Source: Crambe crambe (taxonomy: Eukaryota; Porifera; Demospongiae; Poecilosclerida; Crambeidae). Taken from it: 64,000 bases of DNA. Shown piece by piece: positions 16,129 through 63,958 of this stretch. The notes beneath the pieces are model-generated. The model was given only the letters and a program-made list of their open reading frames with translations. It did no database searches and was not told where the DNA came from. The DNA lies in assembly GCA_963924555.1 (NCBI GenBank), contig OZ004592.1, positions 5,084,001 to 5,148,000 on the forward strand, in the 5' to 3' direction. The number at the start of each line of letters is the position of its first letter. Position 1 is the first letter of the stretch. Both the position numbers and the translations under genes were made by a program.

Positions 16129-19100
16129 ATGATGAAGCCATCCTCTGTTCAGTTAGGAATTTTCTTGCTCATTTTGGTGGGAGTGTACTTTGAAGGTACA
16201 TTGTGTAGCTATAGTTAACTGCACTGTATAGGAGTCATGCAGGTAGAGATTGAATACTGTTAATTACATCACACAGGAATTGCTAGACAATGTACGAAGG
16301 ATTCATGTTATAATGGAGGATTTTGCTCTAATGTGTGTGTTTGTAGAGATGGATGGACAGGAGATACATGCCAAATAGATAATGTATTAGCAGTTAGAAT
16401 GCCCATAGTAAGATTAGATCACTGTAAAACTTAGTCATAGTGACTCCTGAGCCATGAGCAATATGATGTTGATTTCTATGCATGCCATGATGGGAAGTGT
16501 TTGTTTCCCAATGGCTCATGTCCTATTCAATGCAATGCCATATGGGCATGACAGCCACACATTACTCCCTACTATAATACAGTAGCTATGATCAATTGTA
16601 CTGATGGATGATCCACTAAAATTTTGGCTCTTCAATTTACTATTATACCTTAGTGAATTGTACGGATGGATTTTGCTTGAATGGAGGAAACTGTTCCTAT
16701 TATAATAACTGCACATGCCCCATTGAATGGAAAGGAGAACGGTGTCAGACAGGTATGTGGTCAGTAAATTCACCATGCAACTAGCTTATATTATTTTGAT
16801 TAGTGAATTGTACTGATGAATTTTGCTTGAATGGAGGAAACTGTTCCTATTATAATAACTGCTCATGCCCCATTGAGTGGAAAGGAGAACAGTGTCAGAC
16901 AGGTATGTGATCAGTGAATTCACAATGCAACTGGCTTATATTATTCTGATTAGTGAATTGTACTGATAAATTTTGCTTGAATGGAGGAAACTGTTCCTAT
17001 TATAATAACTGCTCATGCCCCATTGAGTGGAAAGGAGAACAGTGTCAGACAGGTATGTGATCAGTGAATTCACAATGCAACTGGCTTATATTATTCTGAT
17101 TAGTGAATTGTACTGATAAATTTTGCTTGAATGGAGGAAACTGTTCCTATTATAACAACTGCTCATGCCCCATTGAGTGGAAAGGAGAACAGTGTCAGAC
17201 AGGTATGTGATCAGTGAATTCACAATGCAACTGGCTTATATTATTCTGATTAGTGAATTGTACTGATAAATTTTGCTTGAATGGAGGAAACTGTTCCTAT
17301 TATAACAACTGCTCTTGCCCCATTGAGTGGAAAGGAGAACAGTGTCAAACGGGTATGTGGTCAGTAAATTCACCATGCAACTAGCTTATGATTATTATAT
17401 TATTTTGATTAGTGAATTGTACTGATGAATTTTGCATGAATGGAGGAAACTGTTCTTATTACAATGACTGCTCATGTCCCATTGAGTGGAAAGGAGAACA
17501 GTGTCAGACAGGTATGCAAGACAGTAGATTCTTCATGTAACAAGCTATGAAAATGATTAGTGAATTGTACGGATGGATTTTGCATGAATGGAGGAAACTG
17601 TTCATATTATAATAACTGCTCATGCCTCATTGAGTGGAAAGGAGAACAATGTCAGGCAGGTATGCAAGTCAGTAAATTCTCCATGTAACTAGCTGGCCAC
17701 TATAATTATGATGATGTACTTAATTAGTGAATTGTACGGATGGATTTTGCTTGAATGGAGGAAACTGTTCATATTACAATAACTGCTCATGCCCCATTGA
17801 GTGGAAAGGAGAACGGTGTCAGACAGGTATGTGGTCAGTCCATGTAACTAGCTGGCCAGTTAACTATAATTATTATTTTATTAGTGAATTGTACTGATGG
17901 ATTTTGTTTGAATGGAGGAAACTGTTCTCATTACAATAACTGCACATGCCCCGTTAAGTGGGAAGGAGAACGATGTCAAACAGGTATAAATACTTGAACC
18001 ATAATCATGCAACCTCTAGCTATAAGCAATATCAAAATAGGATCTTGATGAAATGCATAGCCATACCCTTTCCATTTTCTTCTTGCTGAGAAAAGCAAGA
18101 AAGGGTCTGGCAATATGAAAACTTATATAAGTGATTTGTATATACTTCATTATACAGCTGTTTGTAGGGATGGTTTTTGCAAGAATGGAGGAAAGTGCTT
18201 GTACCCTAACACAAATTGCTCCTGTATAGGAGAGTGGACAGGTCCTAAATGCTCACTGCTAAGTAAGACCAACATCATAAGCATCACTCTTCATTTTATA
18301 ATTATGGTATGTTATTTTTGTTAGGTAGATCCATCATACCATACATCAGTGTAGCAGCTGTGGTTCTATTCATTGCTATTATTTTCATAACTATGATGGC
18401 TGTAATTCAGTGCACCAGACGAAGGAAGAGGATGATCAGATCACATGACTTAAGGTAAAGAAATCTTAGTAGAGTTAAATCAAATTTCAATGCTCTCTTC
18501 AGTAAGTATAAGAGTACAAGTTATGCAGTGGAAACTATTTCCAATTATTTCAGAAAAAGAGAAGGAAAACTTCCTCATTTGAAAACTCCAGTTACACCAT
18601 CGTATTCTAGTAATGTCCATCGCAACAGATTCACTAAGTCCTCTGCAGAAAGTACCAGGTTCACAAACAATAACGATGGAAAACTTCACTATGAAGCCAA
18701 TAAACCACATTCTATAGTGTCATTGGAAATTGACACAAAGAAGCAAGACAGTGCAAAAGTTGAACGAAAAGATAGAAAGGTGCCCATGATGCCTCCTGAG
18801 ATGGCAAATAGAGATGTAGTGGCCATACATCAAATAGAGAAAAATGAGACACCCAAAAAGGAAGAAATCAAGCCAGTAGCACCAAAGCCGGCTAAGCTAT
18901 TATTGCCACTTTCGAAAGCAGCAACAGTAACAGCAGCAGCTCTTCAGTCAAAATCAGATGTGAATGTCACAGAAATATGTAATAAAGTAAAGAAGCAGAG
19001 TGAAGGACAGTGCATAAAGCCAGCAGCATCAAAGCCAGCCAAGCCATTATTGCCACCTTTAAAAGCAGCAACAGCAACAGTTCTTCAGTCAAACTTGGAT

Positions 19101-20873
19101 GCAAATGTCACAGAAACACAGGATAAAGCAAAGAAGCAGAGTGAAGGACAGTGCATAAAGCCAGCAGCATCAAAGCCAGCTAAACCACCTTCAAAAGCAG
19201 CAATGGAAACAGCAGCAGCTCTTCATTCAGAATCAGATGTAAATGTCACAGAAATACATGATAAAGTGAAGAAGCAGAGTGAAAGACAGCACATAAAGCC
19301 ATTATTGCCACCTTCAAAAGCAGCAACAGCAACAGGTCTTCAGTCAAACTCAAATGTAAATGTCACAGAAATATGTGATAAAGTGAAGAAGCAGAGTGAA
19401 GGACAGTGCATAAAGCCACCAGCACCAAAGCCATTATTGCCACCTTCGAAACCAACAGGTCTTCAGTCAAACTCGGATGCAAATATCACAGAAACATGTG
19501 ATAAAGTGAAGAAGCAGAGTGAAGGACAATGCATAAAGCCAGCACTAAGGGAAAAGCCAGCTGGGATACAAACTACTGAGACAAAAGCTCCAAAGAAAGC
19601 ATTGAAACCCCCTATCATACAGGCAAGTGAGAAACTAGCCACACCCACCACAGAACCAGAGAAAGTCTCTAAGCAACCAAAAGAATTATCAGCATTGGTA
19701 CCATCACCATCAACAACAGCACCCACACAGTCTGTGACAAGGGAAGTCAAATTTACCATACCACAACTGCTTTCTGTTGCAAAAGAGAGTAAACTTATTG
19801 ATAATGGAAAGTCTGAAAAATCAAAGCAAAAATGTGAAGAAAAATTACCTAATGATTCTGAAGCAGCTAAGAATGTACAACCAATGGATAATCCTGTATA
19901 TGACGGGTGTAATGTTAAAGTCCTAAAACAACTGCACAACCCTGTTTATGAAGCAAATGAGAACATGGTTCCAACTTGCACTACCTCAGCAACAACCACC
20001 AATAGTAGCAACCACTCAAATAGTTTCCAGGATGAGAGTCATATCTACGATCTTCCAATAACCAGAAAGGAAAAAGAAGAAATCACACACACATATGAAG
20101 AGTTAAGTCTAAAATGTGAAAAGAATCCCCTCAAATCAGATACTCATCATTCTCATACTAAATCAAAGGATAACAAAGTTAAAGGAAACGAAACACCACA
20201 GGCTAAAAACACATCTGATGAGTTCACTTCTGCTGCCAGCTGCAAGCAACCAATGACGTCTCAAGGCAAAAAGACAGCACAGGTCCGAAAACAGCCCATG
20301 ATGCCCCCAGTGAAGAAAACAGCAAATAATCTTACTACAAATAAAGAGGTTTCCTTACACTATGCTGTATCTATACTAAATACTCCTCAGGTAACTGGAG
20401 TTGTAGAACCACTTAGCCATGCATATGCTACTTTGGAACCTCCAACTGAAGTCAAGGAAGAAATGAAAAAACTTTCAGAATTTCCATGTTCAGTGCAAGA
20501 TGATATATCTTCACAAGTCTCCGAGACAGAATCACAAAAAGAGTCATACAGTCATGCATATGCCACTCTTGAGAATCCGACTGAAAATGGAAGAGTTACA
20601 GAAGCTCATGACATGATTTCGACAGAGAAAGAGTTGCTAAACCATGCATATGCTACTCTTGAGGCTCCAGAAGGAGAAACAGACACACATTCTGAAGTTT
20701 CATGCTTGGTGCAAGAAGACAACCAGCTCAACGACCATGCTTATGCAATTCTTGAGAAACCAGAAGAAGTTACAGGAAAGGGGAGGAGACTTATCAGAGC
20801 ACAAAATCTCAAAGTACACTTTATTGACCAAGATAGCCCAGCAAGCAAAGCAGACACTTCAGAGGACCACTAA
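16129..20873 (+). CDS. R2: EGF-array type I receptor with long tail tA
   Basis: Signal-peptide exon 16129-16195 (MMKPSSVQLGIFLLILVGVY). EGF exons: 16277-16378, 16654-16752, 16804-16902, 16954-17052, 17104-17202, 17254-17352, 17413-17511, 17561-17659, 17728-17826, 17885-17983, 18158-18262. TM exon 18325-18454. Tail exon tA 18554-20873 starts at KREGKLPHLK. Exon lengths sum to 1,205 codons. The tail (about 770 residues) is Lys/Pro/Ala-rich, has five KKQSEGQ-IKP repeats, two NPVY motifs (PTB-type), HIYDLP, and four HAYATLE-type YxxL motifs. The first EGF exon has AT in place of GT at its donor and may be skipped without frame change. The apparent Met at 18528 is intronic. TM and last EGF are near-identical to R1. 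Role in signalling is inference. Confidence 0.8.
16654..17352 (+). repeat. 150-bp EGF exon+intron tandem repeat
   Basis: Five units start at 16654, 16804, 16954, 17104 and 17254, exactly 150 bp apart, each a 99-bp EGF exon (VNCTD-FCLNGGNC type) plus a 51-bp intron. Four further, more diverged units follow to 17983. Confidence 0.9.
18867..19550 (+). repeat. Coding repeats in tail tA
   Basis: Five copies of a 38-46 residue unit containing VKKQSEGQCIKP, KPAKPLLPPSKAAT and LQSNSDANVTE. The units vary in length by whole codons, so the repeat expands in frame. The Lys/Pro-rich composition suggests an extended spacer between membrane and the tyrosine motifs. Confidence 0.8.
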
Positions 20874-21288: not shown

Positions 21289-21414
21289 GGTGGCACAAAG
21301 ACCAGCAAAGGACATAGTGATGGAAGATAACGTAGCCTATGAAACAGTAGCAGCCAGCAGCATACAACCAAACATCTCCTATGGAGTAGTAGGGACAAAA
21401 AAGATTGATAAGAG
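21289..21414 (+). CDS. Tail exon tB1, alternative R2 tail module
   Basis: Acceptor ATCATGCAG at 21280-21288, donor GTATTAC at 21415. The exon starts with one base and ends with two, so it fits after the R2 TM exon (which ends on AG) and passes the same phase on. It encodes RVAQRPAKDIVMEDNVAY and NISYGVVG, that is two N-x-[AS]-Y tyrosine motifs like those in R1 and tE. There is no signal peptide or TM of its own. It is best explained as an alternative cytoplasmic exon of R2; splicing is inferred. Confidence 0.6.
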
Positions 21415-21576: not shown

Positions 21577-22036
21577 AATTGTAGACACAAAAACGGAAAT
21601 GCTACATGAAAATGGTGATCCCGAAACCATTAAGGGAGTGGCTAATGTTTCCTATGGAATAACTGTACCAAGAGAATCTGAAACAGCCCGGGGAAAAAAT
21701 CCTGTACAGCCATATGAAATAGTGAACCTTGTATTTGATAAGTCACCTGATAAGAATAAAACACTTGGGAACAAGCAAGGACAATCTGAAACAACGGGAG
21801 CAAAGAATACAGCACAGCCTTATGAGATTGCAAACCCTGTGTCTGATAAGCCACCCAAGCCACTCAACAAGTTATGGAAGAGAAAAACTGATGGAAACAA
21901 GCAAGAAAAATCTGAAAATGTGGGAGCAAAAAATACAGTGCAACCATACGAGGTTGTAAATCTTGTACATGATAGCTATACTGAAGAGCAAAAGTCTGAG
22001 ACTCTTCTTGAAGAATATGAGGACATATTATTTTGA
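21577..22036 (+). CDS. Tail exon tB2, alternative terminal exon
   Basis: The acceptor TTTTTGCAG precedes a one-base start completing AG|A (Arg), followed by IVDTKTEMLHENG and about 150 residues. It contains NVSYGI, three evenly spaced QPYE[IV][VA]N motifs (SH2-type YExV) and ends EEYEDILF with TGA at 22034. It can follow tB1 or a TM exon directly without frame change. Four copies exist in the window, and the repeated part stays open in all of them, suggesting retained coding function. Confidence 0.65.
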
Positions 22037-22589: not shown

Positions 22590-24015
22590 ATGATGGGTCA
22601 TGTACCAAATAGCATTATTTTCACTGCAGTGTTACTCTATTCTGTTTATCAGTCTTCGCTTTCACAAACCAGTAAGTCGTGGCAGCTAATTTACTTAGTG
22701 AGAATATATCCTCTGACTGCATGAATGGAGGTGGACCTGAAGGATGGGAAGGAGAAAACTGCACAAGAGGTAATTATTATATTCTTGATTCACAATACTG
22801 ATGACAAATCTCTTCTTGTAGCTATCTGCAATCAGACATGTGGCAATGGTTTTTGTGTAGCACCAGGGATGTGCATGTGCACAGAAGGATGGGAAGGAGA
22901 AAACTGCATGAGAGGTAATTTGAGTTATTATATTCTTAATTCACTATACTGATGACAACTCTCTTCTTGTAGCTATCTGCAATCAGATGTGTGCCAATGG
23001 GGGTATTTGTGTAGCACCAGGGATGTGCATGTGTCCAGAAAGACAGTGGCAAGGACATGATTGTACACAAGGTATGAACATGCGCAAATAGCACTTGTCA
23101 ATGATACGATATAATTGCAGATATTTATTGCATGGCATTCATATATAAGATCTGTACACTATCAACAGGGTTTATTTCAAGGAGGGGTGAGGGGGAAAAG
23201 CCCCTCTGAATGATTGCTTGCCCCCCTAATGAGATTATTATAGAATTCCATATGCACGTACTGGTTTGTAGTTGCCCCTCCTCAAATCTTTTCACTAGGC
23301 ATTTGACCCCCCTTGAGCAAAATTCTGAATCAAACCATGATCATTTTCCCCCAGCTCTATGTGATGATGATTTCTGTTTAAATGGAGGAAGCTGCTCATT
23401 CCCAAATACTCGATGTCACTGTCCCAAGGGATGGACAGGGAATAGGTGTCAAAATGGTATGATGAGATCAAAATTATGCCAGGCATGATATTATATTCTC
23501 CACATGCAGAAGTGCTCAACTACTATGCAGTATTGGCACCTACTGCAGCTGTTCTGCTGGTGATACTCATCCTTGTACTAATAGCCATCATATCCATGGT
23601 GCAGTGCATCAAAAGAAAAAACTCGTACAAAACCACTATACAGTCAAGGTGTTCTGTTTGCTACATACTAACAGTATACATGTAGTGACCATGTACATCT
23701 TATTGGAACATTGATTAACTGTACTAAGTGGAGTCCCAATGTCACTGTTCACTGAATGAAAAAAATCATTAATCTGACAATAGCTAATTATAGTTATTAT
23801 GCCTTTTCTCTTTCAGAAATCAGAGTATGAATCTGGATACTGATGAAGCATACTCTATCAGTAGAAATATAGCTGCGATAGAGAGTGTGTCTAACACTGC
23901 ATATGGAATATTCACAGAAGAAAGAGAGGGAGCAAGAACTGTATATCCATATGAGGTCCATAATAAGTCACCAGCTACAACTGATGAACCCGTATATGAG
24001 GAAATCTCAAAGTGA
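22590..24015 (+). CDS. R3: short EGF type I receptor with tail tD
   Basis: Exons: 22590-22671 (signal peptide, MMGHVPNSIIFTAVLLYSVY), 22822-22914, 22973-23071 and 23355-23456 (three EGF domains), 23510-23648 ([22 protein letters not shown] then CIKRKNSYK), 23817-24015 (tail tD). Total 714 nt, 237 residues, all junctions in phase. Tail motifs: [21 protein letters not shown] and PVYEEIS. The second EGF has the unusual [11 protein letters not shown] ending. An EGF-like exon at 22706-22770 lacks the middle of the domain and is out of phase, so it was left out. Second copy: R5 at 32895. Confidence 0.75.
22706..22770 (+). pseudogene. Degenerate EGF exon in R3
   Basis: It retains DCMNGG and [11 protein letters not shown] but lacks the central cysteines, and its start phase does not fit the signal-peptide exon. 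The same relic sits at about 33011-33075 in R5, so the damage predates that duplication. Confidence 0.6.
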
Positions 24016-24941: not shown

Positions 24942-27692
24942 ATGAGTCATACACCACTAGGCATAACTTTCATAGTGGCACTGCTAAATTGGACATACCA
25001 GTTGACTGGTGCTACAGGTAAGTATGTCCTTAGTGGGTTTGAATAAGCATCTTTAAAATTAACCTATTTAAGATTGTAGGGACGACATTTGTTTGGTGGG
25101 GTCTACCCATTATGGTAGACTAGAGTACAACCTTTCTGGGGAGTGGATTAGTGTGTGTGGCAGGCAGTGGAATAACACATTATCAGAGACTGTCTGCAGG
25201 ATTGTATCAGGAAATTTCAATAATGAAGATTGTAAGCCTTTTGAGATAATTAAGTTTACTTCAATGCCTAAATTCCATGTACTATTCAGCAATAATAACA
25301 AGCCATGTGAGTGGTGAAGTGCTGAACAGAAGTGTGCAGTTAATATACATCAGTGGAGAATTACAACCTTCAGACTATAATACAACATTAGAAGAAGACG
25401 CCATGTGGGAAGTAGTTGAATTTGAAGACACTCCATGTCCTGCCATTAATATCACTTGCAAAGGTGTGGTATTATCATCTCCTTTCTCTACCATTTTCAC
25501 TCATTCATTATCATACAGGGTCCTGTACTAGGACAGGTTTCTGCACTTGCACTCCTGGTTTCGGAGGATCCAGATGTAATGATGGTCAGTTAATTCATGT
25601 ACACCATTACATTAATCCATTTGGTGTCTGACTGATAATCATAGCACTGTGTGATGGTGAGCCTTATTGTCCCAATGGAGGTACATGTTCATTTCCTGGG
25701 GTATGCAGCTGTGCAGAAGGCTGGGAGGGGGACAGGTGCAACCAGCGTAAGATGTTGAAGAATTATCACTGCTTTGTTAATATGTATATCTGATAACAGC
25801 TGTGTGCTCCCCTGACTGCATGAATGGAGGAACCTGCATAGAACCTGGAGAGTGCTCATGTGCAACAGGATGGACAGGTGATGGATGTGAAACAGGTATG
25901 CAATACTTCATTAGGGAGTGTAGAATTGAAAGTACAATGATCACAGCTGTGTGTGAGCAAGGGTGTAATAATGGAGGTACTTGCACAGGACCAGGGATGT
26001 GCATGTGCACTGAAGGATGGGAAGGAGATGACTGTACAAGAGGTAATCCATTGTTTTGAGCTGTTTAATTCACTATACTGATGGCAAATCTCTTCTTGTA
26101 GCTATCTGCAATCAGACATGTGCCAATGGGGGTATTTGTGTAGCACCAGGGATGTGCATGTGCACAGAAGGATGGGAAGGAGAAAACTGCACAAGAGGTA
26201 ATCATTATTTTGAGATATGATACTCCTAATTCATGGCAAATCTCAGACATGTGCCAATGGGGTTTTTTGTGTAGCACCAGGGATCTGCATGTGTCTAGAA
26301 AGACAGTGGTAAGAACATGATTGTGCACAAGGTGTACATGCACTATAGTAGTCTGGGCGAGCAGACCTTTCAACCTTGGGGGGGGGGGGGGGGGGGGTGG
26401 GGCAGGAGGAAAAGAAAGATCTGGAGACTCTTGACACTCCAGAAATGCAATTAAAATCAATATCACATGCAAAGAATGCACGTGTGCCCGCGCGCTCACA
26501 CCCACGCACGCACCATAAGGCATAGCTAGCTGCTAGCTATAATTATCTAGCTCCAGCTCGATCGATCAATGAGAGATAAGTGTGTCTGGTAGATTTACCT
26601 ATAGCTAGCAAAAGAAGATCACTTACTAGTTTCACACATGTATTGTGCTCGTACATGCGCGCTTATTATTATCTGTTCATGTGACTACTCGAATCTGATT
26701 GGCCTATCGAAATTCCCACAAAACTGTGTCGAGAGTCTCCAGACCTTTCTTTTCCTCCCGCCCCACCCCCAAAGGTCGAAAGGTCTGTTCGCCCAGACTA
26801 GCACTATAGATCATGAACATTCACAAGGTAATAGCACTTGTCAATGGTATAATTGAGATATTTATCGCATAGCATATTCATATCAGATTTGTACACTTTT
26901 CAACACACACACACATGCACACTTATGTTTATGTTCCAGCTCTATGTGATGATGATTTCTGTTTAAATGGAGGAACCTGCTCATTCCCAAATACTCGATG
27001 TCACTGTCCCAAGGGATGGACAGGGAATAGGTGTCAAAATGGTACACCATGTGTCATATTATGTCAGGCATGATATTATATCCTCCACATGCAGAAGTGC
27101 TCAACTACTATGCAGTATTGGCACCTACTGCAGCTGTTCTGCTGCTGATACTCATCCTTGTACTAATAGCCATTATATCCATGGTGCAATGTATTAAGAG
27201 AAAAAAATCATATGACATCACCACACATTCAAGGTATAATAATTATGTCAAGATGTTTCTCTAAATAAAAATAGTTAGCTATAGTAAATGTTATCCATAT
27301 AGCTATCACATTAACATGACTGTGTACACAAATTAAATACATTTTGTACGTATGTATATCACATACACATACACAGATATCAACACAGCACAGTCCGGTT
27401 GTCACTGTTTAATGAAGAGATCAAGGAAATATCAGGCCCCATCATCAATCCTTTTAGCAGTGGAAATGTTATCAGGATATTGAATCCAACAAAAACACCT
27501 AATGATTTCGTTTTTGATGATCAAAGAAAAGAAGAGAATGCTCCTACATTGAAGTTTATTCTCCCTCCAATTCAGCCAGTTCCTACATTGAAGTTTATCC
27601 TCCCTCCAATTCAGCCAGTTAAGGATAATCAAGGAGTATCGACTGCCTCAGCAAGTCCGATGACACAGACGGACTCTTCTTCAAACAAGTGA
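24942..27692 (+). CDS. R4: SRCR/EGF type I receptor, SRCR exon frameshifted
   Basis: Exons: 24942-25017 (signal peptide [17 protein letters not shown]), 25073-25463 (SRCR-like: [32 protein letters not shown]), EGF 25519-25584, 25645-25746, 25800-25895, 25947-26042, 26102-26197, 26940-27041, TM 27095-27233, tail tC 27389-27692. The SRCR exon is 391 nt, not a multiple of 3: two bases present in R6 and R8 are missing near 25286, giving a TGA at 25315. Skipping this phase 1-1 exon would leave an open EGF-only product of about 358 residues. The tail is cut short at SSSNK by the foldback insertion at 27685, leaving no YHTLEPP motifs. Functional status uncertain. Confidence 0.5.
26240..26331 (+). 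pseudogene. Degenerate EGF exon in R4
   Basis: It matches the [25 protein letters not shown] exon of the paralogues but lacks an acceptor and has TAA replacing a codon at the QW-QG position. Confidence 0.65.
26349..26800. mobile_element. 452-bp element with 9-bp target duplication and known empty site
   Basis: Terminal inverted repeats begin TAGTCTGGGCGA and extend about 75 bp with mismatches and a G-run. GCACTATAG is duplicated at 26340-26348 and 26801-26809. The paralogous introns at 37423-37431, 50082-50090 and 58926-58934 carry a single GCACTATAG: the unoccupied site. The element therefore inserted in R4 after the paralogues separated. A 9-bp duplication suggests a Mutator-type MITE. Confidence 0.85.
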
Positions 27693-28145
27693 GCATAAAA
27701 ATTTTCTTCTAAATAAAAATTGAAGTAGGGATAGCCATAAAATTTAGCTGCATTCCTCTCACTCCTAGCCCTCCTAATATCAATAACCACACCTACAACT
27801 TAAATCCCTACTCTTCACTCCCCCTTCAGCAATAAGTGAGTCAAGTAACCCCTTACCTGTACCCATCATCGAACTCAAGAATCACAGCAATAATATTATT
27901 ACAAAACTATTATTCCTATTTCACTCCTAAGGAGGCCTAGGAGTGAAGTAGGAATAGTAGTTTTGTAATAATATTATTGCTGTGATTCTTGAGTTTGGTG
28001 ATGGGTACGGGTAAGGGGTTACTTGACTCAGTTATTGCTGAAGGGGGAGTGAAGAGTAAGGATTTAAGTAGGTGTGGTTATTGATATTAGGAGGGCTAGG
28101 AGTGATGGTTATCCCTACTTCAAGAAATTTTTTACACTAACTTGT
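27685..28145. mobile_element. Foldback element F1, truncates the R4 tail
   Basis: A 461-bp near-perfect palindrome with ends ACAAGT...ACTTGT and centre near 27935. It contains GAAGTAGGGAT close to both ends. It sits in the tC coding exon right after TCAAACAAG and supplies the stop codon TGA. Related foldbacks are F2-F6 elsewhere in the cluster. Confidence 0.8.
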
Positions 28146-31715: not shown

Positions 31716-31880
31716 GTATTACTACCACATGCATACTAAAGCCTGGTAAAGTGGTTGGATGTATGCGAATAGAAAACCTATACATGTATACAGTTATAGC
31801 CTGTATATAATATCTGTATAAAATAACAACTCCAAGATTTACAAAGTGAACATGAACTAAATTATTTGTTATTTTTGCAG

Positions 31881-48880: not shown

Positions 48881-48970
48881 CACTGTGTGATGGTGAGCCT
48901 TATTGTCCCAATGGAGGTACATGTTCATTTCCTGGGGTATGCAGCTGTGCAGGTGATAGATGTGAAACAG
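48881..48970 (+). other. Chimeric EGF exon in R8
   Basis: The first 70 or so bases match the [14 protein letters not shown] exon and the last 20 match the end of the next EGF exon (GATAGATGTGAAACAG). The exon and intron between them were deleted. The result is 90 nt, still phase 1-1, but lacks the W-x-G loop. Confidence 0.75.
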
Positions 48971-51795: not shown

Positions 51796-52100
51796 TAAAG
51801 GAAAAAATATTTATTCTAAATAAAAAAGAGAAGTAGGGATGGCTGTGTGTGGTTCAAAAAAGTTCAGCAACAAGAGAGTGAACTTCGTCAAGTAACTCTT
51901 ACCCATCACCAACTACGAGCCAACTATTCCTACTTCACTCCCTTTATATCTCATCACGGGAGTGAAGTATGAATAGTTGGTGATGGGTAAGGGGTTACTT
52001 GACTGAAGTTCACTCTCTTGTTGCTGAACTTTTTTGAACTGCACACAGCCATCCCTACTTCTCTTTTTTATTTAGAATAAATATTTTTTCCTTTACTTGT
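51796..52100. mobile_element. Foldback element F6 in the R8 tail
   Basis: Arms as in F4 (TAAAGGAAAAAATATTTATT). Here the left end abuts GATAATCACGAG: the tC coding sequence between CACGAG and the F4-type insertion point has been deleted. Further inserted repeat continues to about 52623. Confidence 0.75.
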
Positions 52101-52623
52101 TCAGCATCTTTTTTGATGTAATGCTCTATTTATAGGCAACTGGATGCTGTGATTCTGCTATCAAAGTTAAAGTTTAGCTATGTAGTTCATTGGAGGTTTC
52201 ATCATAATATTGTATGAGCTGAAATGAATCTGATCTGGAAGGACTAATGCATTTATAATGAGATTGCCATTGACCTAAGGCCTTTACTGATATGTACCTG
52301 TATCAAAGCTTGATTCATAACCAGACTAGTGCCTAGGGTGAGACCGATCGAAATCAAGAGAGTGAAAGCTAATGATAGATTTGCTACAGTTGCGAGGTCA
52401 AGGTCCTTGAATCATGTGTATGGAATGGGGCATAAAATATAAGCTACAAGTTCGAAAATGACGTGCTATTTTGAACATGTCGAGTTAGATTATAGCGCAG
52501 TCATTTCTGAGTAGATTGGTATAAGAATTATAGCATTTGAATGAACCATTTCTGAAATAAGTTGTTTAATGATGATGATGAACGACCAGATGAAAACGAT
52601 TTTTGAAGTTGCTGTAAAATGAT

Positions 52624-53592
52624 ACTCAACACCAGATTCAAGTCACATGATTGAGTTACCAAGTCTTAAAAATGGGTTACCAAAAGCTGACTTACCAAGT
52701 CATGTCAGGCCTGTACCCAGAAATAAACTTTTTGCCTGGCCACGCCCACTTTTACCTGATCACACCCATTTTTGATAGGCTGTTGCAGCTGTTAACTGTA
52801 GGCAGTCAGGGAGTAGCTGATGAAGATATCTTCTACCTGCACAGTTTTACAGTAAGACTTGGATACAAGCTGAACTTAGCAGAGCTAATAGCTTCAGGCA
52901 CCATAGATCTATAGCTGTTTTAAATTCAGTAGCCTAGGGGTGGGTTATAGCTAGCTAATAACTGACCTTTTCTGGACAATAAGCTTTGCTAGACTCGTTC
53001 TCTTTCTCTCTGCTTCGAGCTAGCTCATGCACATGAACGAACTAAAATGATTTTTAATGACACACGCATTTAAGATTCAATTTGAAAAGGGAGTTCGATC
53101 GAACCGCTTGGTACGGGTCTGCATGTGACCAAACTACCACAGAAAAAGACTCGAGATTCTAACCTCCCTAAGCACGAATAAAAAATCCAAAAAGAGAATG
53201 ACAAATTACCCTTAAATGCACAGGGTTGTGCAATGGTAGAACAACCTGAAATGCTTGGTTCCAGCAACAAAAGTCACATTTCCAGCAATAAAAATCATGC
53301 TTCCAGTAGCAAGAGAATTTCTGAGTTACCAGGTCATGTGACCAAACTACCACAAAAAAATATTCGAGATCCTAACCTCCCTCGACATGAACAAAAAGTT
53401 CGAAAAGAGGATGAAAAAAACCCTTAAATGCACAGGGTCATGCAATGGTAGAACAACCACCTAAACAAGAAATGCTTGAACATAACGTTGATCCCAGCAA
53501 CAAAAGTAACATTTCTAATAGTGAAAATCAAGCTAGTACTGGAGGTCACAGTGAGAACTTGAATATCAATGATCCCAAGAAAGTAGGCACAG
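52624..53592 (+). pseudogene. Decayed continuation of tail tC (R8)
   Basis: A close copy of 41855-42822 with the same 415-bp-type insertion (52706-53121, CATGT duplicated), the same stop-containing HE* region and the same fusion to tB1 at 53592. The damage is shared, so it predates the R6/R8 duplication. Confidence 0.8.
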
Positions 53593-53717
53593 TGGCACAA
53601 AGACCAGCAAAGGACATAGTGATGGAAGATAACATTAGCCTATGAAACAGTAGCAGCCAGCAGCATACAACCAAACATCTCCTATGGAGTAGTAGGGACA
53701 AAAAAGATTGATAAGAG
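53592..53717 (+). pseudogene. tB1, fourth copy, fused and frameshifted
   Basis: It carries the same junction and extra-base frameshift as the copy at 42822. Confidence 0.8.
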
Positions 53718-53863
53718 GTATTACTACCACATGCATACTAAAGCCTGGTTGGATGTATGTGAATACAATACAGCTATAGCCTGTATATAATAACTGTATA
53801 AAATAACAACTCCAAGATTTACAAAGTGAACATGAACTAAGTTATTATTTGTTACTTTTGCAG

Positions 53864-54320
53864 AATTGTAGACACAAAAATGGAAATACTACATGAAAAT
53901 GGTGATCCCGAAGCCATTAAGGGAGTGGCTAATGTTTCCTATGGAATAACTGCACTAAAAGAATCTGAAACAGCCCGGGGGAAAAATCCTGTACAGCCAT
54001 ATGAAATAGTGAACCTTGTATCTGATAAGTCACCTGATAAGAGTGAAACACTTGGGAACAAGCAAGGACAATCTGAAACAATGGGAACAAAAAACACAGC
54101 ACAGCCTTATGAGATTGCAAACCCTGTGTCTGATAAGCCACCCAAGCCATTCAACAAGTTATGGAAGAGAAAAACTGCTGGAAACAAGCAAGAAAATTTT
54201 GAAAATGTGGGAGCAAACAATACAGTGCAACCATACGAGGTTGTAGATCTTGTACATGATAGCTATACTGAAGAGCAAAAGTCTGAGACTCTTCTTGAAG
54301 AATACGAGGACATATTTTGA
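53864..54320 (+). CDS. Tail exon tB2, fourth copy
   Basis: Open from the acceptor CTTTTGCAG to TGA at 54318, with NVSYGI and three QPYE motifs retained. It is phase-compatible with the R8 TM exon 2.4 kb upstream. Confidence 0.5.
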
Positions 54321-55535: not shown

Positions 55536-58500
55536 ATGAGTCACACACCACTAGGCATAACTTTCATAGTGGTACTGCTAAATTGGACATACCAATCGAC
55601 TGGTGCTACAGGTAAGTATGTCCTTAGTGGGTTTGAATAAGCATCTTTCACATTAGCCTATTTAAGATTGTAGGGACGATATTTGTTTGGTGGGGTCTAC
55701 CCATTATGGTAGACTAGAGTACAACCTTTCTGGGGAGTGGATTAGTGTGTGTGGCAGGCAGTGGAATAACACATTATCAGAGACTGTCTGCAGGATTGTA
55801 TCAGGAAATTTCGATAATGAAGATTGTAAGCCTTTTGAGATAATTAAGTTACTTCAATGCCTAAATTCCATGTACTATTCAGCAATAATAACAAGTCATG
55901 TGAATGGTGAAGTGCTGAACAGAAGTGTGCAGTTAATATACATCAGTGGAGAACTACAAGAAGTTAGATTAGAAAATACTCCATGTCCTGCCATCAATAT
56001 CATTTGCAAAGGTGTGGTACTGTCATCTCCTTTTCTACCATTTTCACTCATTCACTATCATACAGGGTCCTGTACCGGGACAGGTTTCTGCACTTGTTCT
56101 CCTGGTTTTGGAGGATCCAGATGTAATGATGGTCAGTTGATTCATGTACACCATTACATTAATCCATTTGGTGTCTGACTAATAATCATAGCATTGTGTG
56201 ATGGTGAGCCTTATTGTCCCAATGGAGGTACATGTTCATTTCCTGGGGTATGCAGCTGTGCAGAAGGCTGGGAGGGGGATAGGTGTAACCAATGTAAGAT
56301 GCTGAAGAATTATCACTGCTTTGTTAATATGTATATATGATAACAGCTGTGTGCTCCCCTGACTGCATGAATGGAGGAACCTGCATAGAACCTGGAGAGT
56401 GCACATGTGCAGCAAGATGGACAGGGAACAGATGTGAAACAGGTACACAACACTTCATTAATGAGTTTAACTATGCTGAATGTACATATGATAACAGCTG
56501 TGTGCTCCCCTGACTGCATGAACGGAGGAACCTGCATAGAACCTGGAGAGTGCACATGTGCAGCAGGATGGACAGGGAACAGATGTGAAACAGGTACACA
56601 ACACTTCATTAATGAGTTTAACTATGCCAAATGTACATATGATAACAGCTGTGTGCTCCCCTGACTGCATGAACGGAGGAACCTGCATAGAACCTGGAGA
56701 GTGCACATGTGCAGCAGGATGGACAGGGAACAGATGTGAAACAGGTACACAACACTTCATTATATGTAGAGTTTAACTATGCTGAATGTACATATGATAA
56801 CAGCTGTGTGCTCCCCCGACTGCATGAACGGAGGAACCTGCATAGAACCTGGAGAGTGCACATGTGCAGCAGGATGGACAGGGAACAGATGTGAAACAGG
56901 TACACAACACTTCATTATATGTAGAGTTTAACTATGCTGAATGTACATATGATAACAGCTGTGTGCTCCCCTGACTGCATGAACGGAGGAACCTGCATAG
57001 AACCTGGAGAGTGCACATGTGCAGCAGGATGGACAGGGAACAGATGTGAAACAGGTACACAACACTTCATTAATGAGTTTAACTATGCCAAATGTACATA
57101 TGATAACAGCTGTGTGCTCCCCTGACTGCATGAACGGAGGAACCTGCATAGAACCTGGAGAGTGCACATGTGCAGCAGGATGGACAGGGAACAGATGTGA
57201 AACAGGTACACAACACTTCATTATATGTAGAGTTTAACTATGCTGAATGTACATATGATAACAGCTGTGTGCTCCCCTGACTGCATGAACGGAGGAACCT
57301 GCATAGAACCTGGAGTGTGCACATGTGCAGCAGGATGGACAGGGAACAGATGTGAAACAGGTACACAACACTTCATTAATGAGTTTAACTATGCCAAATG
57401 TACATATGATAACAGCTGTGTGCTCCCCTGACTGCATGAACGGAGGAACCTGCATAGAACCTGGAGAGTGCACATGTGCAGCAGGATGGACAGGGAACAG
57501 ATGTGAAACAGGTACACAACACTTCATTATATGTAGAGTTTAACTATGCTGAATGTACATATGATAACAGCTGTGTGCTCCCCCGACTGCATGAACGGAG
57601 GAACCTGCATAGAACCTGGAGAGTGCACATGTGCAGCAGGATGGACAGGGAACAGATGTGAAACAGGTACACAACACTTCATTATATGTAGAGTTTAACT
57701 ATGCTGAATGTACATATGATAACAGCTGTGTGCTCCCCTGACTGCATGAACGGAGGAACCTGCATAGAACCTGGAGAGTGCACATGTGCAGCAGGATGGA
57801 CAGGGAACAGATGTGAAACAGGTACACAACACTTCATTAATGAGTTTAACTATGCCAAATGTACATATGATAACAGCTGTGTGCTCCCCTGACTGCATGA
57901 ACGGAGGAACCTGCATAGAACCTGGAGAGTGCACATGTGCAGCAGGATGGACAGGGAACAGATGTGAAACAGGTACACAACACTTCATTATATGTAGAGT
58001 TTAACTATGCTGAATGTACATATGATAACAGCTGTGTGCTCCCCTGACTGCATGAACGGAGGAACCTGCATAGAACCTGGAGTGTGCACATGTGCAGCAG
58101 GATGGACAGGGAACAGATGTGAAACAGGTACACAACACTTCATTAATGAGTTTAACTATGCCAAATGTACATATGATAACAGCTGTGTGCTCCCCTGACT
58201 GCATGAACGGAGGAACCTGCATAGAACCTGGAGAGTGCACATGTGCAGCAGGATGGACAGGGAACAGATGTGAAACAGGTACACAACACTTCATTATATG
58301 TAGAGTTTAACTATGCTGAATGTACATATGATAACAGCTGTGTGCTCCCCTGACTGCATGAATGGAGGAACCTGCATAGAACCTGGAGAGTGCACATGTG
58401 CAGCAGGATGGACAGGGAACAGATGTGAAACAGGTACACAACACTTACCTAGTGAGTCTAGAATTGAAGGATAACCATGCATGTACAATTACCACAGCTG

Positions 58501-61500
58501 TGTGTGAACAAGGATGTGATAATGGAGGAACCTGCATAGAACCTGGAGAGTGCTCATGTGCAACAGGATGGACAGGGAACAGATGTGAAGCAGGTACACA
58601 ACACTTCATTAGTGAGTCTAGAATTGCAATATATATATATAACGATGTACAATGACCACAGCTGTGTGTGAGCAAGGATGTAATAATGGAGGTACTTGCA
58701 CTGGACCTGGAGAGTGCATGTGCACAGAAGGATGGGAAGGAGATGCCTGTACAAGAGGTAATCCATTGTTTTGAGTTATTTAATTCACTATACTGATGGC
58801 AGATCTCTTCTTGTAGCTATCTGCAACCAGATATGTGTCAATGGGGGTATTTGTGTAGCACCAGGGATGTGCATGTGTCCAGAAAGACAGTGGCAAGGAC
58901 ATGATTGTACACAAGGTATGAACATGCACTATAGATCATGGTTTAGCACTTGTCAATGATATGATAATTTTCCTGTGTTTACTAAACAATAGTGAAGATA
59001 TTAATCATATCACTGCATCTGGAATAAGCACTTTCAACACACACATACACATGCTATTATGTGGCATTTAAATGTTTATGCTTTCCAGCTCTATGTGATG
59101 ATGATTTCTGTTTAAATGGAGGAAGCTGCTCATTCCCAAATACTCGATGTCACTGTCCCAAGGGATGGACAGGGAATAGGTGTCAAAATGGTATGATTAG
59201 ATCAAAATTATGCCAGGCACGATATTATATTCTCCACATGCAGAAGTGCTCAACTACTATGCAGTATTGGCACCTACTGCAGCTGTTCTGCTGGTGATAC
59301 TCATCCTTGTACTAATAGCCATCATATCCATGGTACAGTGTATTAAGAGAAAAAAATCATATGACATCACCACACATTCAAGGTATAATAATTATGTCAA
59401 GATGTTTCTCTAAATAAAAATAGTTAGCTATAGTAAATGTCATCCATATAGCTATCACATTAACATGACTGTGTACACCAAATTAAATACATTTTGCACA
59501 TATGTATATCACATACACATACACAGACATCAACACAGTACAGTCCGGTTGTCACTGTTTAATGAAGAGATCAAGGAAATATCAGGCCCTATTATCAATC
59601 CTTTTAGCAGTGGAAATGCTATCAGGATATTGAATCCAGTAAAAACACCTAATGATTTCGTTTTTGATGATCATGAGCCCAGCATTCATGAAAAAGATGA
59701 TTTAGTAGAACTTCATGACCAGATCATCATGTCTCCAAAAGAAGAAGAGAATGCTCCTACATTGAAGTTTATCCTCCCTCCAATTCAGCCAGCTAAGGAT
59801 AATCAAGCCGCCTCAACAAGTCCAGTGACACAGACGGACTCTTCTTCAAATAAACAGATTAGTGCCAAAATAGAAGCAACAATGTCATCAACACCAGATT
59901 CAAGTCATATCGAGTTACCAAGTCTTAAAACTGGGTTACCAAAAGCTGACTTACCAGGTCATGTGACCAAACTACCACAGAAAAAGACTCGAGATCTTAA
60001 CCTCCCTAGGCATGAACAAAAAATCCAAAAAGAGAATGACAAATCACCCTTAGATGCACAGGGTCATGCAACAGTAGAACCTGAAATGCTTGGTTCCAGC
60101 AACAAAAGTCACATTTCCAGCAATACTTCCAATAGCAAGAGAAAAACTGAGTTACCAGGTCATGTGACTGAACTACCACAGAAAAAGACTCGAGATCCTA
60201 AACATGAACAGAAAGTCCGAAAAGAGGATGAACAATCACCCTTAAATGCACAGGGTCATGCAATGGTAGAACAGCCACCCAAACAAGAAATGCTTGAACA
60301 TAAAATTGATCCTAGCAACAAAAGTAACATTTCTAAGAGTAAAAATCAAGCTTCCAGTAGCAAGAGTAGAACCAGCACAACCAGTATCGGAGGTCACAGT
60401 CAGAACTTGCATATCAATGATCCCAAAAAAGTAGACACAGGAACTGATTCGGAAAAAATTGCTAATGAATTTGATAAAACTATACTTCAAATGCAAGAGG
60501 TCCTGAAATCACTTGAGAAATCACCACCACAAAATGTTGGTAAACTTGGTAAGCTTCAAGATACAACAAAATCACCACCCAAACCAAAACAGTCGTTGCT
60601 TGAAAAGGAGCCAATATACATACCACCATTATCAGTATCACCTCAATATGCAAGTACAGATCCAAAACCTAAGGTAAAATCTATGAAGATAGTGAAGTCG
60701 GAACCCACTATAACAACAAAAGGTTCCAAGTCAAGACCGAATGCTTATGATACTTTGGAGCCCATCATTCCTTATGTTAAACCTGATCCTAGTACGGCCA
60801 AAACCACAATGCCAAATACCAAACCTGTTCATCAATATGCTGCAATAGATGAACCCAGGAATGTGAAATTGAAACCCAGAGTGCCAGAATCCATCACAGA
60901 TTATCAATCATCAACCATTGAGGAAGTCGTTTATGATAGTTTACAACCTGTGATACCTCAAACAAAATCTGATCACAGCAATGGTAAGAGTATGACTTCT
61001 ACCACTGCTATATCACGGAAAAAATCACCCAAATCTTCCATTACAGAGCCAGCTGCCTATTTGGAACCCATTACCACTCGAGTGAAATCTGATCATGGTA
61101 CTATAAAAAGTACAATACCTAACACTGAAGCAATTCATCAATATGCTTTATTAGAGGAACCAAGGAAGATGAAATCGAAAATGAAAATGGAATCAATGAG
61201 ATCAGAGCCCACTACTGTCACAGAATCTTCCAAACTTTCGGAAGCTGTATATCACACTTTAGAGCCAGTGGTCACTCCAGTGAAAATTGATCATACCACT
61301 GCCAAAAGCACACTTCCCAATGCTGAAATGATCCATCAATATGCTCAATTAGAGGAATCAAAGAAATTGAAGCCAAAATCCAAAACTGGAATAAAATCTA
61401 AAGAAAAAATGAGTACTTCGCAGAAGGCTCCTTCTCAAACTACAGCTACTTCTCAAATACCAGTTGTGGAGAGTGGAAAAGCAAACATTAATAATGGCAT

Positions 61501-62164
61501 GGAACCAAACAGTCTTTATGCAACTGTTAAATCGAAGCCAAAACTGGCATCAACACAATGCCATGATGATCTGACCTCTCGTCATTACGATGCACCAGTA
61601 ATGAAGCCAAATAGCACCACTTCATCACTCACTGTTACTGGTACTGGTATAGATCACCAATATGCCACACTAGAGCCTCCCATGATACCTAACACACCAA
61701 ATCCAGGGAAGACACAGAGAGCTGTGGTGAATTCTTCCTCTGAAGTAGACCTTGCAAAGGTCTATTCCAAGCAAGAACATTCCACAAGAGAACCCCAAAG
61801 TACAGTAAAGAAATCACCTCATGCCCTTCAAAAGCCCACAATGCCAGAGAGAGCTGGGCATGATGGTAGTCCTGTTTATCATACTCTAGAACCACCAGTG
61901 TATGCTAAGCCTAAACTGAAAGGACTTGGGAAATCCACAAAAACATCACCTGATGTCTCTATAATTAGAGCAGACAAAACTGCAGTAGACAGTCATGAAT
62001 ATCACACACTTGAACCACCAACAAAGTCATCCAGTGAAACTGAACAAGAGGATGATAACCACAGAAACCTTAATGAGACAAAGACCCACACTGGAAGCTC
62101 TCGTGAATACCACACACTGGAACCACCAACAAGTATATCAAAAAAATCCCTTTCTACAAATTGA
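55536..62164 (+). CDS. R9: complete SRCR/20-EGF/TM receptor with long tail tC
   Basis: Exons: 55536-55611 (signal peptide), 55667-56011 (SRCR-like), EGF 56066-56131, 56192-56293, fourteen 96-nt exons starting at 56347, 56498, 56649, 56804, 56959, 57110, 57265, 57416, 57571, 57726, 57877, 58032, 58183, 58338, then 58498-58593, 58662-58757, 58817-58915, 59089-59190; TM 59244-59382; tail tC 59539-62164. The sum is 1,697 codons with every junction in phase. The tail (about 875 residues) is Lys/Pro/Ser/Thr-rich with over a dozen tyrosine motifs: [70 protein letters not shown], and HQYA[LQ]LEE variants. These are YxxL/V SH2-type sites. The Met-initiated frame from 59465 is intronic before 59539. 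Confidence 0.85.
56347..58433 (+). repeat. Fourteen-unit EGF exon array with 767-bp higher-order repeat
   Basis: Each unit is a 96-bp exon ([18 protein letters not shown] type) with a 55- or 59-bp intron, giving periods of 151 or 155 bp. The spacing series 155-155-151-155-151 occurs twice, so five-exon blocks of 767 bp are duplicated: exons with CCCCGACTGC at 56804 and 57571, and exons with GGAGTGTGC at 57265 and 58032, are exactly 767 bp apart. Confidence 0.92.
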
Positions 62165-62493: not shown

Positions 62494-63058
62494 AGAGTCA
62501 CATGATGATGGATTGGATAATGTGCAAAACACAGCATATGGAAGTCATGCAGGAGAGATTCTCTCTCAGGAAGTGGCTGGTGAGACAGGAAGCAGAGAAG
62601 AGTATGATGATGGATTGGATAATGTAATGATGGATCAAAACACAGCATATCATACAAGAGATTCAGGAGATCTTTTCTCTCAGGAAGTGCCTGGTGGGAG
62701 AGGAAGCAGAGAAGAGCCAGATGATGGATTGGATAACGTGGTAATGGATCAAAATACAGCATACATAAGTCATTCGGGACAGCTTCTCTCTCAGGAAGTG
62801 GCTGGGACAGGAAGTAAAGAACCTAAGTATTATGAAGTACGACCTAATTGCAAAGAGAGAGCACAGGAAGTGGCTGGAGGAACAGGAAGCAAAGAGCCCA
62901 AGTATTATGAAGTACTACCTATTTGTAAGAATGGTGTGGAGGAAGTGGCTGGAGGAACAGAAAGCAAAGAGCCCAAGTATTATGAAGTACTACCTATTCA
63001 TAAGAATGGTGCAGAAGAGATGGCTGGAACAGGAAGCAAAGAAGAGCCCAAGTACTAA
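62494..63058 (+). CDS. Tail exon tE, downstream alternative tail
   Basis: Acceptor CTTGCAG at 62487-62493; the exon starts with one base (A) completing AG|A and runs 188 codons to TAA. It contains repeated DDGLDN-V and DQNTAY blocks (three NTAY) followed by four YYEV[LR]P motifs separated by GTGSKEP-type spacers. It resembles the R1 tail at 3098-3474. It has no signal peptide or TM, and lies 330 bp after the R9 stop. It is most likely an alternative last exon of R9; splicing is inferred. Confidence 0.6.
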
Positions 63059-63625: not shown

Positions 63626-63958
63626 ATGTTGGAAAATATTAATGCAGCTGTGAGTGGATTAGGAATGAAGTTCATAGTGATACTACTCAGCATTGGATAC
63701 ATGGTCACTGACTCACAAGGCACAAGTAAGAGTGAATATTTCACTTAATATGTAGCCATTCATTAGAATCATGCATGGCATTAGGTTGTAATGGTAGCAG
63801 TATTGATGATATTCGGCTAGTGGAAGGAGATGGATATCAAGGCTTAGTAGAGATATGCACTAGACATGGATGGACAAGTATCTGTGGGAGTAGGTGGAGC
63901 AATGCTGAGGCTAGACTTGCTTGTCGACTGTTGGGATTACCACATATGAATGCTACAG
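63626..63958 (+). CDS. R10: start of another SRCR receptor, 3' end outside window
   Basis: Signal-peptide exon 63626-63725 (MLENINAAVSG, hydrophobic core MKFIVILLSIGYMV) and SRCR exon 63785-63958, in phase. The SRCR part is canonical: DDIRLVEGDGYQGLVEI, WTSICGSRW, ARLACRLLGL. It is closer to the SRCR consensus than the R4-R9 domains, and diverged from them. The exon ends at a GTTAAT donor and the gene continues past 64000. Confidence 0.75.

Follow-up and report, generated by a model that had tools for sequence, protein, structure and literature searches.

A tandem array of EGF/SRCR-type receptor genes with putatively exchangeable tails in the sponge Crambe crambe

Can one kind of extracellular receptor be connected to different intracellular tails, and would the change be made in the DNA, in the transcript or in both? 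The question is raised by a stretch of 64,000 nucleotides (the window) from the demosponge Crambe crambe, probably on chromosome 12. An earlier note had described there nine signal-peptide-bearing receptor genes, all on the plus strand, with six interchangeable tail exons behind their transmembrane (TM) exons. Nine signal-peptide exons with phase-1 donors were found on that strand (at 16129, 22590, 24942, 32895, 35256, 44863, 48222, 55536 and 63626 or 63665), but the span assigned to the nine genes holds only eight TM exons. Phase-2 TM exon ends, searched for as AG/GT only and with exon bounds examined for seven, lie on the plus strand at 2843, 18454, 23648, 27233, 33953, 38848, 46934, 51508 and 59382. 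The first is part of an upstream gene, G0 (2843–3474, plus strand), in which a short beginning of a tA-like tail follows, along with a tE-like open reading frame whose phase does not fit the TM exon; the TM exon of the ninth gene, G9, ends at 64955, beyond the window.

Layout of the array

Judged from its exons, the locus is a tandem array of predicted type I receptors of EGF/SRCR type, in which a signal peptide and a run of EGF modules are followed by a TM exon that leads into a phase-2 last exon, usually tyrosine-rich. The ectodomain exons were confirmed as symmetric phase 1-1 arrays with one EGF module per exon (both scans sought only phase 1-1 exons), and such one-exon modules allow the run to lengthen or shorten in frame. 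All genes described in this section lie on the plus strand.

G1 has its ectodomain and TM exon at 16129–18454 (signal peptide 16129–16195, 11 EGF exons at 16277–18262, TM end 18454 at AG/GT). Its first tail, tA (18554–20873), has an acceptor scoring 9.5 and encodes 772 residues up to its own stop, with two NPxY and repeated HAYATLE motifs; all four matches to tA in the sponge's own genome fall within the window. Then comes tB1 (21289–21414), a symmetric phase 2-2 exon that carries MEDNVAYETV and ends AG/GTATTA, and after it tB2 (21577–22036), a terminal exon of 152 residues that is open in four of four copies. Since tB1 is an internal exon leading into tB2, the proposed six tail types reduce to five.

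Three genes have a single tail each, tD. G2 (22590–23648) consists of a signal peptide (22590–22671), three EGF exons and a TM exon (23510–23648), with a 65-residue tD at 23817–24015. G4 (32895–34328) has a signal peptide, three EGF exons (the first lacking a cysteine), a TM exon at 33815–33953 and tD at 34130–34328, and G6 (44863–47294) a signal peptide, an SRCR-like region, eight EGF exons, a TM exon at 46796–46934 and tD at 47096–47294.

G3, G5, G7 and G8 are associated with tC. In G3 (24942–27233) the signal peptide (24942–25017) precedes an SRCR-like region from 25073, six EGF exons and a TM exon (27095–27233); the SRCR-like regions of G3 and G6 each have an uncompensated 2-base deletion. 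The tC of G3 (27389–27692) is truncated to about 100 residues and, by count, has zero tyrosines. A second tA copy (29845–31192) is a relic, truncated at the 5′ end, shortened by a net 19-base deletion and lacking a TM exon ahead of it, and a copy of tB1 plus tB2 lies at 31590–32337, behind the G3 TM exon. G5 (35256–38848) has a signal peptide, an SRCR-like exon from 35387, about 11 EGF exons and a TM exon at 38710–38848; its tail region (40572–43550) holds a truncated tC (to 41036) which, translated from the tC start, has no tyrosine, followed by insertions, a remnant of a tC–tB1 fusion (around 42822) and an open tB2 (43094–43550). G7 (48222–51508) has a signal peptide, an SRCR-like exon, about nine EGF exons plus one broken, a TM exon at 51370–51508 and a tail region (51670–54320) with a disrupted tC, a dead tB1 copy and an open tB2 (53864–54320). 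G8 (55536–59382) comprises a signal peptide, an SRCR-like exon with compensated −1/−2 shifts, 20 EGF exons that include an array of 14 near-identical units, a mosaic intron and a TM exon at 59244–59382. Its tC (59539–62164) is intact, with 874 residues counted from 59539 (the exact acceptor is uncertain) and 19 tyrosines, and a second tail, tE (62494–63058), encodes 187 residues with YYEVLP-type repeats. The start of G9 (63626–63958) supplies a signal-peptide exon and the N-terminal half of a true SRCR domain.

The earlier note had also seen a shared feature in the splice junctions, every TM exon ending on a split AG that each tail completes. Phase 2 is shared by the TM exons, but the AG is uninformative and was rejected as a special code: 28 of the 39 other donors listed also end in AG, and the TM exon of a paralog, C19, is of phase 2 yet ends in TT. 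Likewise tA, tB, tD and tE begin in phase 2, but AG gives a sense codon whichever base follows it, so what the observation really shows is the shared phase.

Blocks of 0.8 kb and 2.6 kb with identities as high as 97.7% and 97.3%, respectively, are what might lead one to suspect that the array is an assembly duplication of a single gene, the outcome named beforehand as fatal to the proposal. The probability of this is negligible, given that noncoding sequence differs by 1.2–16.3% in six block pairs, that EGF numbers and tails differ, and that the C. crambe assembly was built on HiFi reads at 459-fold coverage.

Exchange of tails at the last EGF–TM hinge

In all 21 pairs among G2–G8 the last EGF exon is 97–100% identical, and the TM exon minus its last 50 bases 98–100%. 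The near-invariant hinge thus comprises the last EGF exon together with the TM exon as far as base 89; on either side of it the flanks split into distinct types. For G6, the 150 bases 5′ of the last EGF exon show 75–80% identity to G5, G7 and G8 and 41–42% to G2, G3 and G4, whereas the 200 bases 3′ of the TM exon are 93% identical to G2 and 84% to G4, and 20–32% to G3, G5, G7 and G8. G6 is therefore read as a mosaic, G5/G7/G8-like upstream and G2/G4-like downstream. By the same kind of comparison G8 is also a mosaic: the intron ahead of its TM exon is 96% identical to those of G2 and G4 (72–77% to G3, G5, G6 and G7), and its 3′ flank is of the tC type, at 97% to G3 and 87% to G7. A nearly invariant hinge with mosaic flanks indicates that recombination or gene conversion at this point has joined closely related receptors to different tails.

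In seven of seven genes the 3′ end of the TM exon and the tail are matched, one 10-residue type occurring with tD (G2, G4 and G6) and the other with tC (G3, G5, G7 and G8). The proposal of modular tails behind a constant TM exon therefore survives mainly as DNA exchange among paralogs and not as free combination of six tails; six interchangeable tails were rejected, because tB1 leads directly into tB2 and a given TM 3′ end is tied to one tail type. What emerges looks more like a choice between two tails in a gene.

Two last exons behind one TM exon

The clearest case for two tails comes from G9–G11, the sister genes immediately downstream, in each of which a single TM exon has two complete last exons, t1 and t2, behind it. 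The t1 acceptors were placed by alignment at 65088, 69998, 74259 and 83409, and the tests of selection, donors, acceptors and motifs use these positions. By simple pairwise counts, omega is 0.43–0.62 for t1 (six pairs of four genes) and 0.40–0.53 for t2 (three pairs). Between G10 and G11, frameshifting indels number 0 of 6 in t1 and 0 of 7 in t2, against 10 of 12 in noncoding sequence (Fisher p = 2e-5), although substitutions are no scarcer in the tails (0.074 and 0.079) than in noncoding sequence (0.058). When the t1 of G13 is compared with those of G10 and G11, there are 5 and 1 indels, none of them frameshifting, whereas 7 of 8 and 6 of 7 noncoding indels are; substitutions amount to 0.07–0.08 in t1 and 0.17–0.19 in noncoding sequence. 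As these counts indicate, both t1 and t2 of G9–G11 are kept as coding sequence under purifying selection, which implies alternative terminal exons. The splicing machinery would take either the first or the second acceptor, giving two mutually exclusive ends, and the same choice would probably be made in G1 (tA or tB) and in G8 (tC or tE).

A different use of the same exons would make t1 and t2 consecutive parts of one long spliced tail, the stop of t1 belonging to a retained-intron form. Both exons begin in phase 2 and could be joined in frame, tB1 and tB2 are a real pair of consecutive phase-2 exons, and the t1–t2 fusions of G12 and G16 stay open in the t1 frame. However, no good phase-2 donor was found within the full t1 of G9, G10, G11 or G13 (best scores 1.6–1.8, where known donors have a median of 10.3 and a lowest tenth of 4.7), nor a strong one in tC (2.7); the best tA donor scores 4.3, below that lowest tenth, and the t1 frame is conserved right up to its stop. 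We regard consecutive use as very improbable.

Weak t1 acceptors lower our confidence in the two-tail reading slightly. Those of G9–G13 and G16 score from −6.1 to 1.7, and the acceptors of t2, tD, tE and, for tB2, three of the four copies from 1.3 to 5.0, under the lowest tenth (5.3) of a possibly biased yardstick of 34 known acceptors (median 9.4), most of which belong to related EGF exons. Of five poly(A) hexamers sought, none occurs in the G9–G11 sequence that separates t1 from t2. G1 and G8 differ from these genes in having two and four such hexamers, respectively, between their two tails, one of them an AATAAA between tA and tB1.

Within the window, the evidence for two tails is weaker than in G9–G11. 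tC is intact in G8 only, shortened in G3 and G5 and disrupted in G7, and is thus broken in three of four copies; at the tC start given above, its acceptor scores 1.1 in G3 and −4.0 in G8 against the known median of 9.4, and the next candidate, 12 bases upstream, scores no better. Two of the four tB1 copies are dead (at 42.8 and 53.6 kb). With one intact copy each of tA and tC, the selection comparisons cover tB2 and tD. Along 1370 aligned sites of tB2 no indel shifts the frame, against 34 that do so along 8599 noncoding sites (p = 0.011; the blocks partly overlap), and tB2 has an omega of 0.40–2.79 over six pairs by simple pairwise counts, with few changes. tD differs by 0–1%, against 6–7% in noncoding sequence (two comparisons with G6).

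This state of the tails is also what would be seen if each TM exon had one dedicated tail, second tails being relics of duplication, deletion and unequal exchange, with no alternative splicing. The TM 3′ end matches the nearest tail type in all seven genes, truncation or breakage affects many of the window's tails, the tE-like frame of G0 is out of phase, and G2, G4 and G6 have one tail each, as does the C19 paralog, a scan of which gave one convincing tyrosine-rich tail and not two. Purifying selection on both t1 and t2 of G9–G11, with frame kept, and a tB2 free of frameshifts across four copies stand against it, and we consider dedicated tails unlikely. To the reading in which tails recombined at the hinge, alternative terminal exons and tyrosine docking would together give one ectodomain different outputs, we assign a probability of roughly 60%. 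A more tentative version, which we think will sooner prove wrong than right, makes the TM exon a double hub, at which recombination re-pairs heads and tails and splicing picks the tail, with opposing or distinct tyrosine outputs.

Tyrosine motifs, ectodomains and possible roles

In seven tails, Yxx[LIVM] occurs 38 times where 14.3 are expected, a number reached by none of 2000 shuffles, and NPxY occurs twice, in tA only. Enrichment of the ITIM-like [ILVST]xYxx[LIV] is not clear (7 versus 4.2, a count attained in 244 of 2000 shuffles), that of YxN and YxxP in the tails is not significant, and 11 tails contain one ITAM-like spacing (t2 of G9, outside the window) and no hemITAM, so the motifs do not reveal whether the tails activate or inhibit. 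After tyrosine phosphorylation, the Yxx[LIVM] repeats and the NPxY of tA may dock SH2 or PTB proteins; the tails would equally fit YxxPhi endocytic sorting. The same ectodomain would thereby be linked to different outputs, most plausibly in the recognition and uptake of microbes or debris.

The ectodomains were taken in the earlier note for those of a fast-evolving recognition receptor family of EGF/SRCR type, possibly immune or allorecognition. G9 does exceed the Pfam SRCR cut-off (33.2 bits against 26.1), but the G5-type head falls just under it at 25.8 bits, and the models of G1, G2 and G4 have no SRCR exon. The Pfam scan placed EGF_2, EGF_TEN and EGF above their cut-offs and a PEAR1-like EGF below its own (31.5 against 37.5 bits); no EMI match was obtained with the queries used, a shortened G8/G5-type composite and a shortened G1. 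A diversified recognition surface is not apparent in the ectodomain: the EGF units within G1 and within G8 are near-unchanged repeats (diversification was judged only from this near-unchanged repetition), and the SRCR-like head of G5 is matched at 98% identity by that of G7 and at 91% by that of G8. The five EGF-exon indels in the block comparisons are all frameshifting and reflect broken exons or array misalignment.

Little diversification in EGF units and SRCR-like head, together with the EGF-repeat architecture and NPxY and Yxx[LIVM] tails, would suit the same structure in a non-immune role, in cell or debris clearance, adhesion or patterning in the style of CED-1, Draper and MEGF10/11. Local array growth, tail turnover and the SRCR-bearing sisters recall expanded immune receptor families instead, and the queries scanned gave no EMI match; we place a non-immune role somewhat below even odds.

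The earlier note knew of no family with this architecture. Titles and abstract openings found in a literature search named no work on the exact combination, but its elements have precedents in modular EGF exons or in tail swapping by splicing, as in MEGF11 and Botryllus FcoR. A passage of PMC7335077 describes MEGF11 splicing that gives modular EGF numbers, five cytoplasmic domains and a choice of ITAM or ITIM. Like MEGF10/MEGF11, Draper and CED-1, the sponge genes have EGF modules mostly one per exon and tails with tyrosine motifs. Unlike them, they form a tandem multigene array with an SRCR-like or SRCR head and without EMI in the queries scanned, their tails have also been exchanged by recombination, and complete alternative last exons are predicted behind one TM exon. 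The passages on SRCR expansions in Amphimedon and Halichondria (PMC10855680, PMC8242945) describe similar tandem arrays, SRCR plus EGF domains and large expansion; these passages report no tail-exon modularity, and the G1, G2 and G4 models differ in lacking an SRCR exon. Botryllus FcoR, too, are type I receptors from a multigene family, many of whose members share one locus; their tails carry ITIM, hemITAM or a core Yxx[ILV] motif. Their ectodomains consist of Ig and sushi domains, absent from the sponge genes where EGF and SRCR-like domains were found instead, and the FcoR genes are paired with fester genes and studied for a role in allorecognition.

Vertebrate paired receptors (KIR, LILR, CEACAM and Siglec) carry near-identical ectodomains on different tyrosine tails through duplication and recombination. 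The sponge receptors have different domains and no readable tail polarity. If spliced as predicted, they would combine a constant sensor with a switchable output, the tails also being re-paired by recombination, and would give an early-branching animal lineage the same-head, different-tail logic of vertebrate paired receptors and Botryllus FcoR. A double hub, if real, would add a built-in output switch to paired-receptor logic in a sponge.

A proximal motif, [DEQ][DEQ]N[VIT][SA]Y, also recurs in tails. Across six frames of 264 kb it has 10 matches, every one of them on the plus strand and within a tail exon or a tail-like open reading frame, against a mean of 0.20 and a maximum of 1 in 20 shuffles, some of the copies being duplicates of one another.

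Exchange of tails at the last EGF and transmembrane exons

Across the receptor genes G2–G8, the last EGF exon is 97–100% identical in all 21 pairs, and the transmembrane (TM) exon minus its last 50 bases is 98–100% identical, again in 21 of 21. By contrast, the final 50 bases of that exon and the 200 that follow fall into two types, tD and tC; over the latter 200, G5, which has an insertion there, is only 34–43% identical to the remaining tC genes. Two genes have mosaic flanks. G6 resembles G5, G7 and G8 upstream (75–80%) and G2 and G4 downstream (93% and 84%), and G8 is like G5, G6 and G7 upstream (80%), of the G2/G4 type in the intron (96%) and of the tC type downstream. These mosaics need recombination breakpoints inside the cassette formed by the last EGF and TM exons. 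Selection alone could hold the exons similar, but it could not create mosaic flanks.

We examined the window (C15:5084001–5148000) with 100 kb of flank on each side, and searched the genome at large (143,139,886 bases in 119 contigs). The earlier note counted nine TM exons ending on a split AG codon. Nine in the window do end AG/GT in phase 2, although only eight lie within the span it gave (16129–63958), and the AG is not a special feature, being the usual donor context here (28 of the 39 other donors listed). Elsewhere, one TM exon of a paralogous cluster on contig C19 leaves phase 2 with the donor TT/GT, and one on C20 leaves phase 2 with AG/GT. Judged from these two further examples, receptors of this genome may generally leave their TM exon in phase 2.

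Genes with two candidate tails

The clearest two-tail case lies outside the window, in the SRCR/EGF sister genes G9, G10 and G11 immediately downstream, where the TM exon is followed by two open reading frames (t1, then t2), each with its own stop and readable from an acceptor in phase 2. In G13, t1 is accompanied by no more than a fragment of t2; in G12 and G16 the two frames are fused and open. Omega in pairs with G9 is 0.43–0.53 for t1 and 0.40–0.44 for t2, and in closer gene pairs 0.44–0.62 and 0.53. Between G10 and G11, none of the six indels in t1 and none of the seven in t2 shifts the frame, whereas 10 of the 12 noncoding indels are frameshifting (p 2e-5). Substitutions are no rarer in these tails (0.074 and 0.079) than in noncoding sequence (0.058), whilst t1 of G13 differs from those of G10 and G11 by 0.07–0.08, against 0.17–0.19 for noncoding sequence.

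Donor scoring found no good phase-2 donor within t1, and none of the five poly(A) hexamers searched for occurs between t1 and t2 in G9–G11; after t2, AATAAA is present in G10 and G11, but only AATACA in G9. The simplest reading is that the 3′ region is shared and its two acceptors are used mutually exclusively, giving t1 or t2. Against such use count the poor scores of the t1 acceptors (−6.1 to 1.7, with t2 at 3.7–5.0 and the lowest tenth of known acceptors at 5.3), on a yardstick for which related EGF exons were the main source. The two-tail layout recurs within the window in G1 (tA, then tB) and G8 (tC, then tE). Unlike G9–G11, these two genes have poly(A)-like hexamers between their tails, two in G1 and four in G8, as would suit alternative last exons that each have an end of their own.

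Whilst six tails had been proposed for the window, tB1 and tB2 proved to be consecutive exons of a single tail. Intact long reading frames, counted from the acceptors used, are tA of G1 (772 aa) and tC of G8 (874 aa); tD is carried by G2, G4 and G6, and G3 has a short tail without tyrosine. Broken forms comprise tC in G3, G5 and G7, a tA copy at 29.8 kb, tE of the upstream gene G0, and tB1 near 42.8 kb and 53.6 kb. Insertions at 41036–42350 (the G5 tail region) and 51791–53120 (G7) split or disrupt tC, and palindromic inverted repeats in the tail regions, at 27759–28105 (93%) and 40125–40573 (98%), are possibly mobile-element remnants. Whole-genome matches to tA (four), tB2 (four) and tE (three) are confined to the window. 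Evidence of constraint among the window tails is limited to two of them. In two comparisons with G6, tD differs by 0–1% and noncoding sequence by 6–7%, and tB2 has no frameshifts in 1370 aligned sites, compared with 34 in 8599 noncoding sites (p 0.011, the alignments partly overlapping); the omega range of tB2, 0.40 to 2.79 on few changes, counts against constraint.

In the set of seven tails (tA, tB, tC, tD, tE and both G9 tails), Yxx[LIVM] occurs 38 times with 14.3 expected, a count reached in none of 2000 shuffles. ITIM-like motifs are not significant in this set (7 with 4.2 expected; 244 of 2000 shuffles reach this), and NPxY occurs twice, both times in tA. The proximal motif [DEQ][DEQ]N[VIT][SA]Y has 10 matches in six frames of the 264 kb, all on the plus strand and confined to tail exons or the tail-like reading frame of G0; 20 shuffles gave an average of 0.20 and a maximum of 1. 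A related motif, [KM][DG]N[LI][AT][YH]E, opens all six t1 copies. Together, these motifs suggest a common origin for tail exons of different kinds.

Ectodomains, likely role and genome setting

Nine plus-strand signal-peptide exons were found, as the earlier note had it, starting at 16129, 22590, 24942, 32895, 35256, 44863, 48222, 55536 and 63626 or 63665. The EGF exons between signal peptide and TM exon are likewise phase 1-1, the only phase for which the scripts looked, and skipping of such symmetric exons would be tolerated. They measure ∼65–105 bases, with array introns of ∼50–65 bases. From G1 to G8, the chains contain 11, 3, 6, 3, ∼11, 8, ∼9 and 20 EGF exons, omitting the low-score exons at 23121, 26630 and 33426 and the broken exon at 49185, and counting merged pairs as split. 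EGF units recur almost without change in G1 and G8. The G8 array (56329–58611) has higher-order periods of 155, 306 and 461 bases (95–96% match), which suggests recent growth by one to three exons at a time; a period of 159 (97% matches) in the G0 array (273–1790) likewise suggests recent expansion.

An SRCR-like module heads G3 and G5–G8, its G5 form scoring 25.8 bits and so falling short of the 26.1 that Pfam requires; G9 contains half of a true SRCR domain (33.2 bits). Compared with the G5 module, identity is 98% for G7 and 91% for G8. The modules of G3 and G6 have an uncompensated 2-base deletion, and in G8 deletions of 1 and 2 bases restore the frame. Since all five EGF exon indels counted are also frameshifting, some genes may be defective or differently spliced.

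The heads are little diversified, whilst neck length and tails vary. A single sensor coupled to different outputs fits this pattern better than a diversified repertoire for recognition does; another possible explanation is recent duplication. Our best guess at the role is uptake or innate recognition. MEGF11 is described as having one-exon EGF repeats and splicing to five cytoplasmic domains (PMC7335077). Botryllus FcoR are reported as type I receptors whose tails bear ITIM, hemITAM or a core Yxx[ILV] motif, these motifs being swapped via splicing at oligomorphic loci (PMC12065747). In the literature searched, we have not seen described a tandem receptor array that combines a TM-exon hinge for DNA exchange with paired last exons that are both conserved. 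Among sponges, SRCR genes are reported as expanded in Amphimedon, about half in tandem (PMC10855680), and receptor expression as individual-specific in Halichondria (PMC8242945).

Between G0 and G1 lies a minus-strand VPS8-like gene (11123–15928; TPR_Vps8 47.3 bits, with a weaker RING match), and a segment covering its 5′ part and the start of G1 (14817–16384) has a second copy upstream of the window (95.6%). The array continues for ∼34 kb (window coordinates 64000–98400) as a second receptor subfamily with SRCR and EGF domains and other TM types, two genes of which have short tails with YENIDHLQ or YESIDK at the end. Genome-wide there are at least 175 SRCR matches; among the matches listed, dense clusters lie on contigs C3, C9, C18 and C20.
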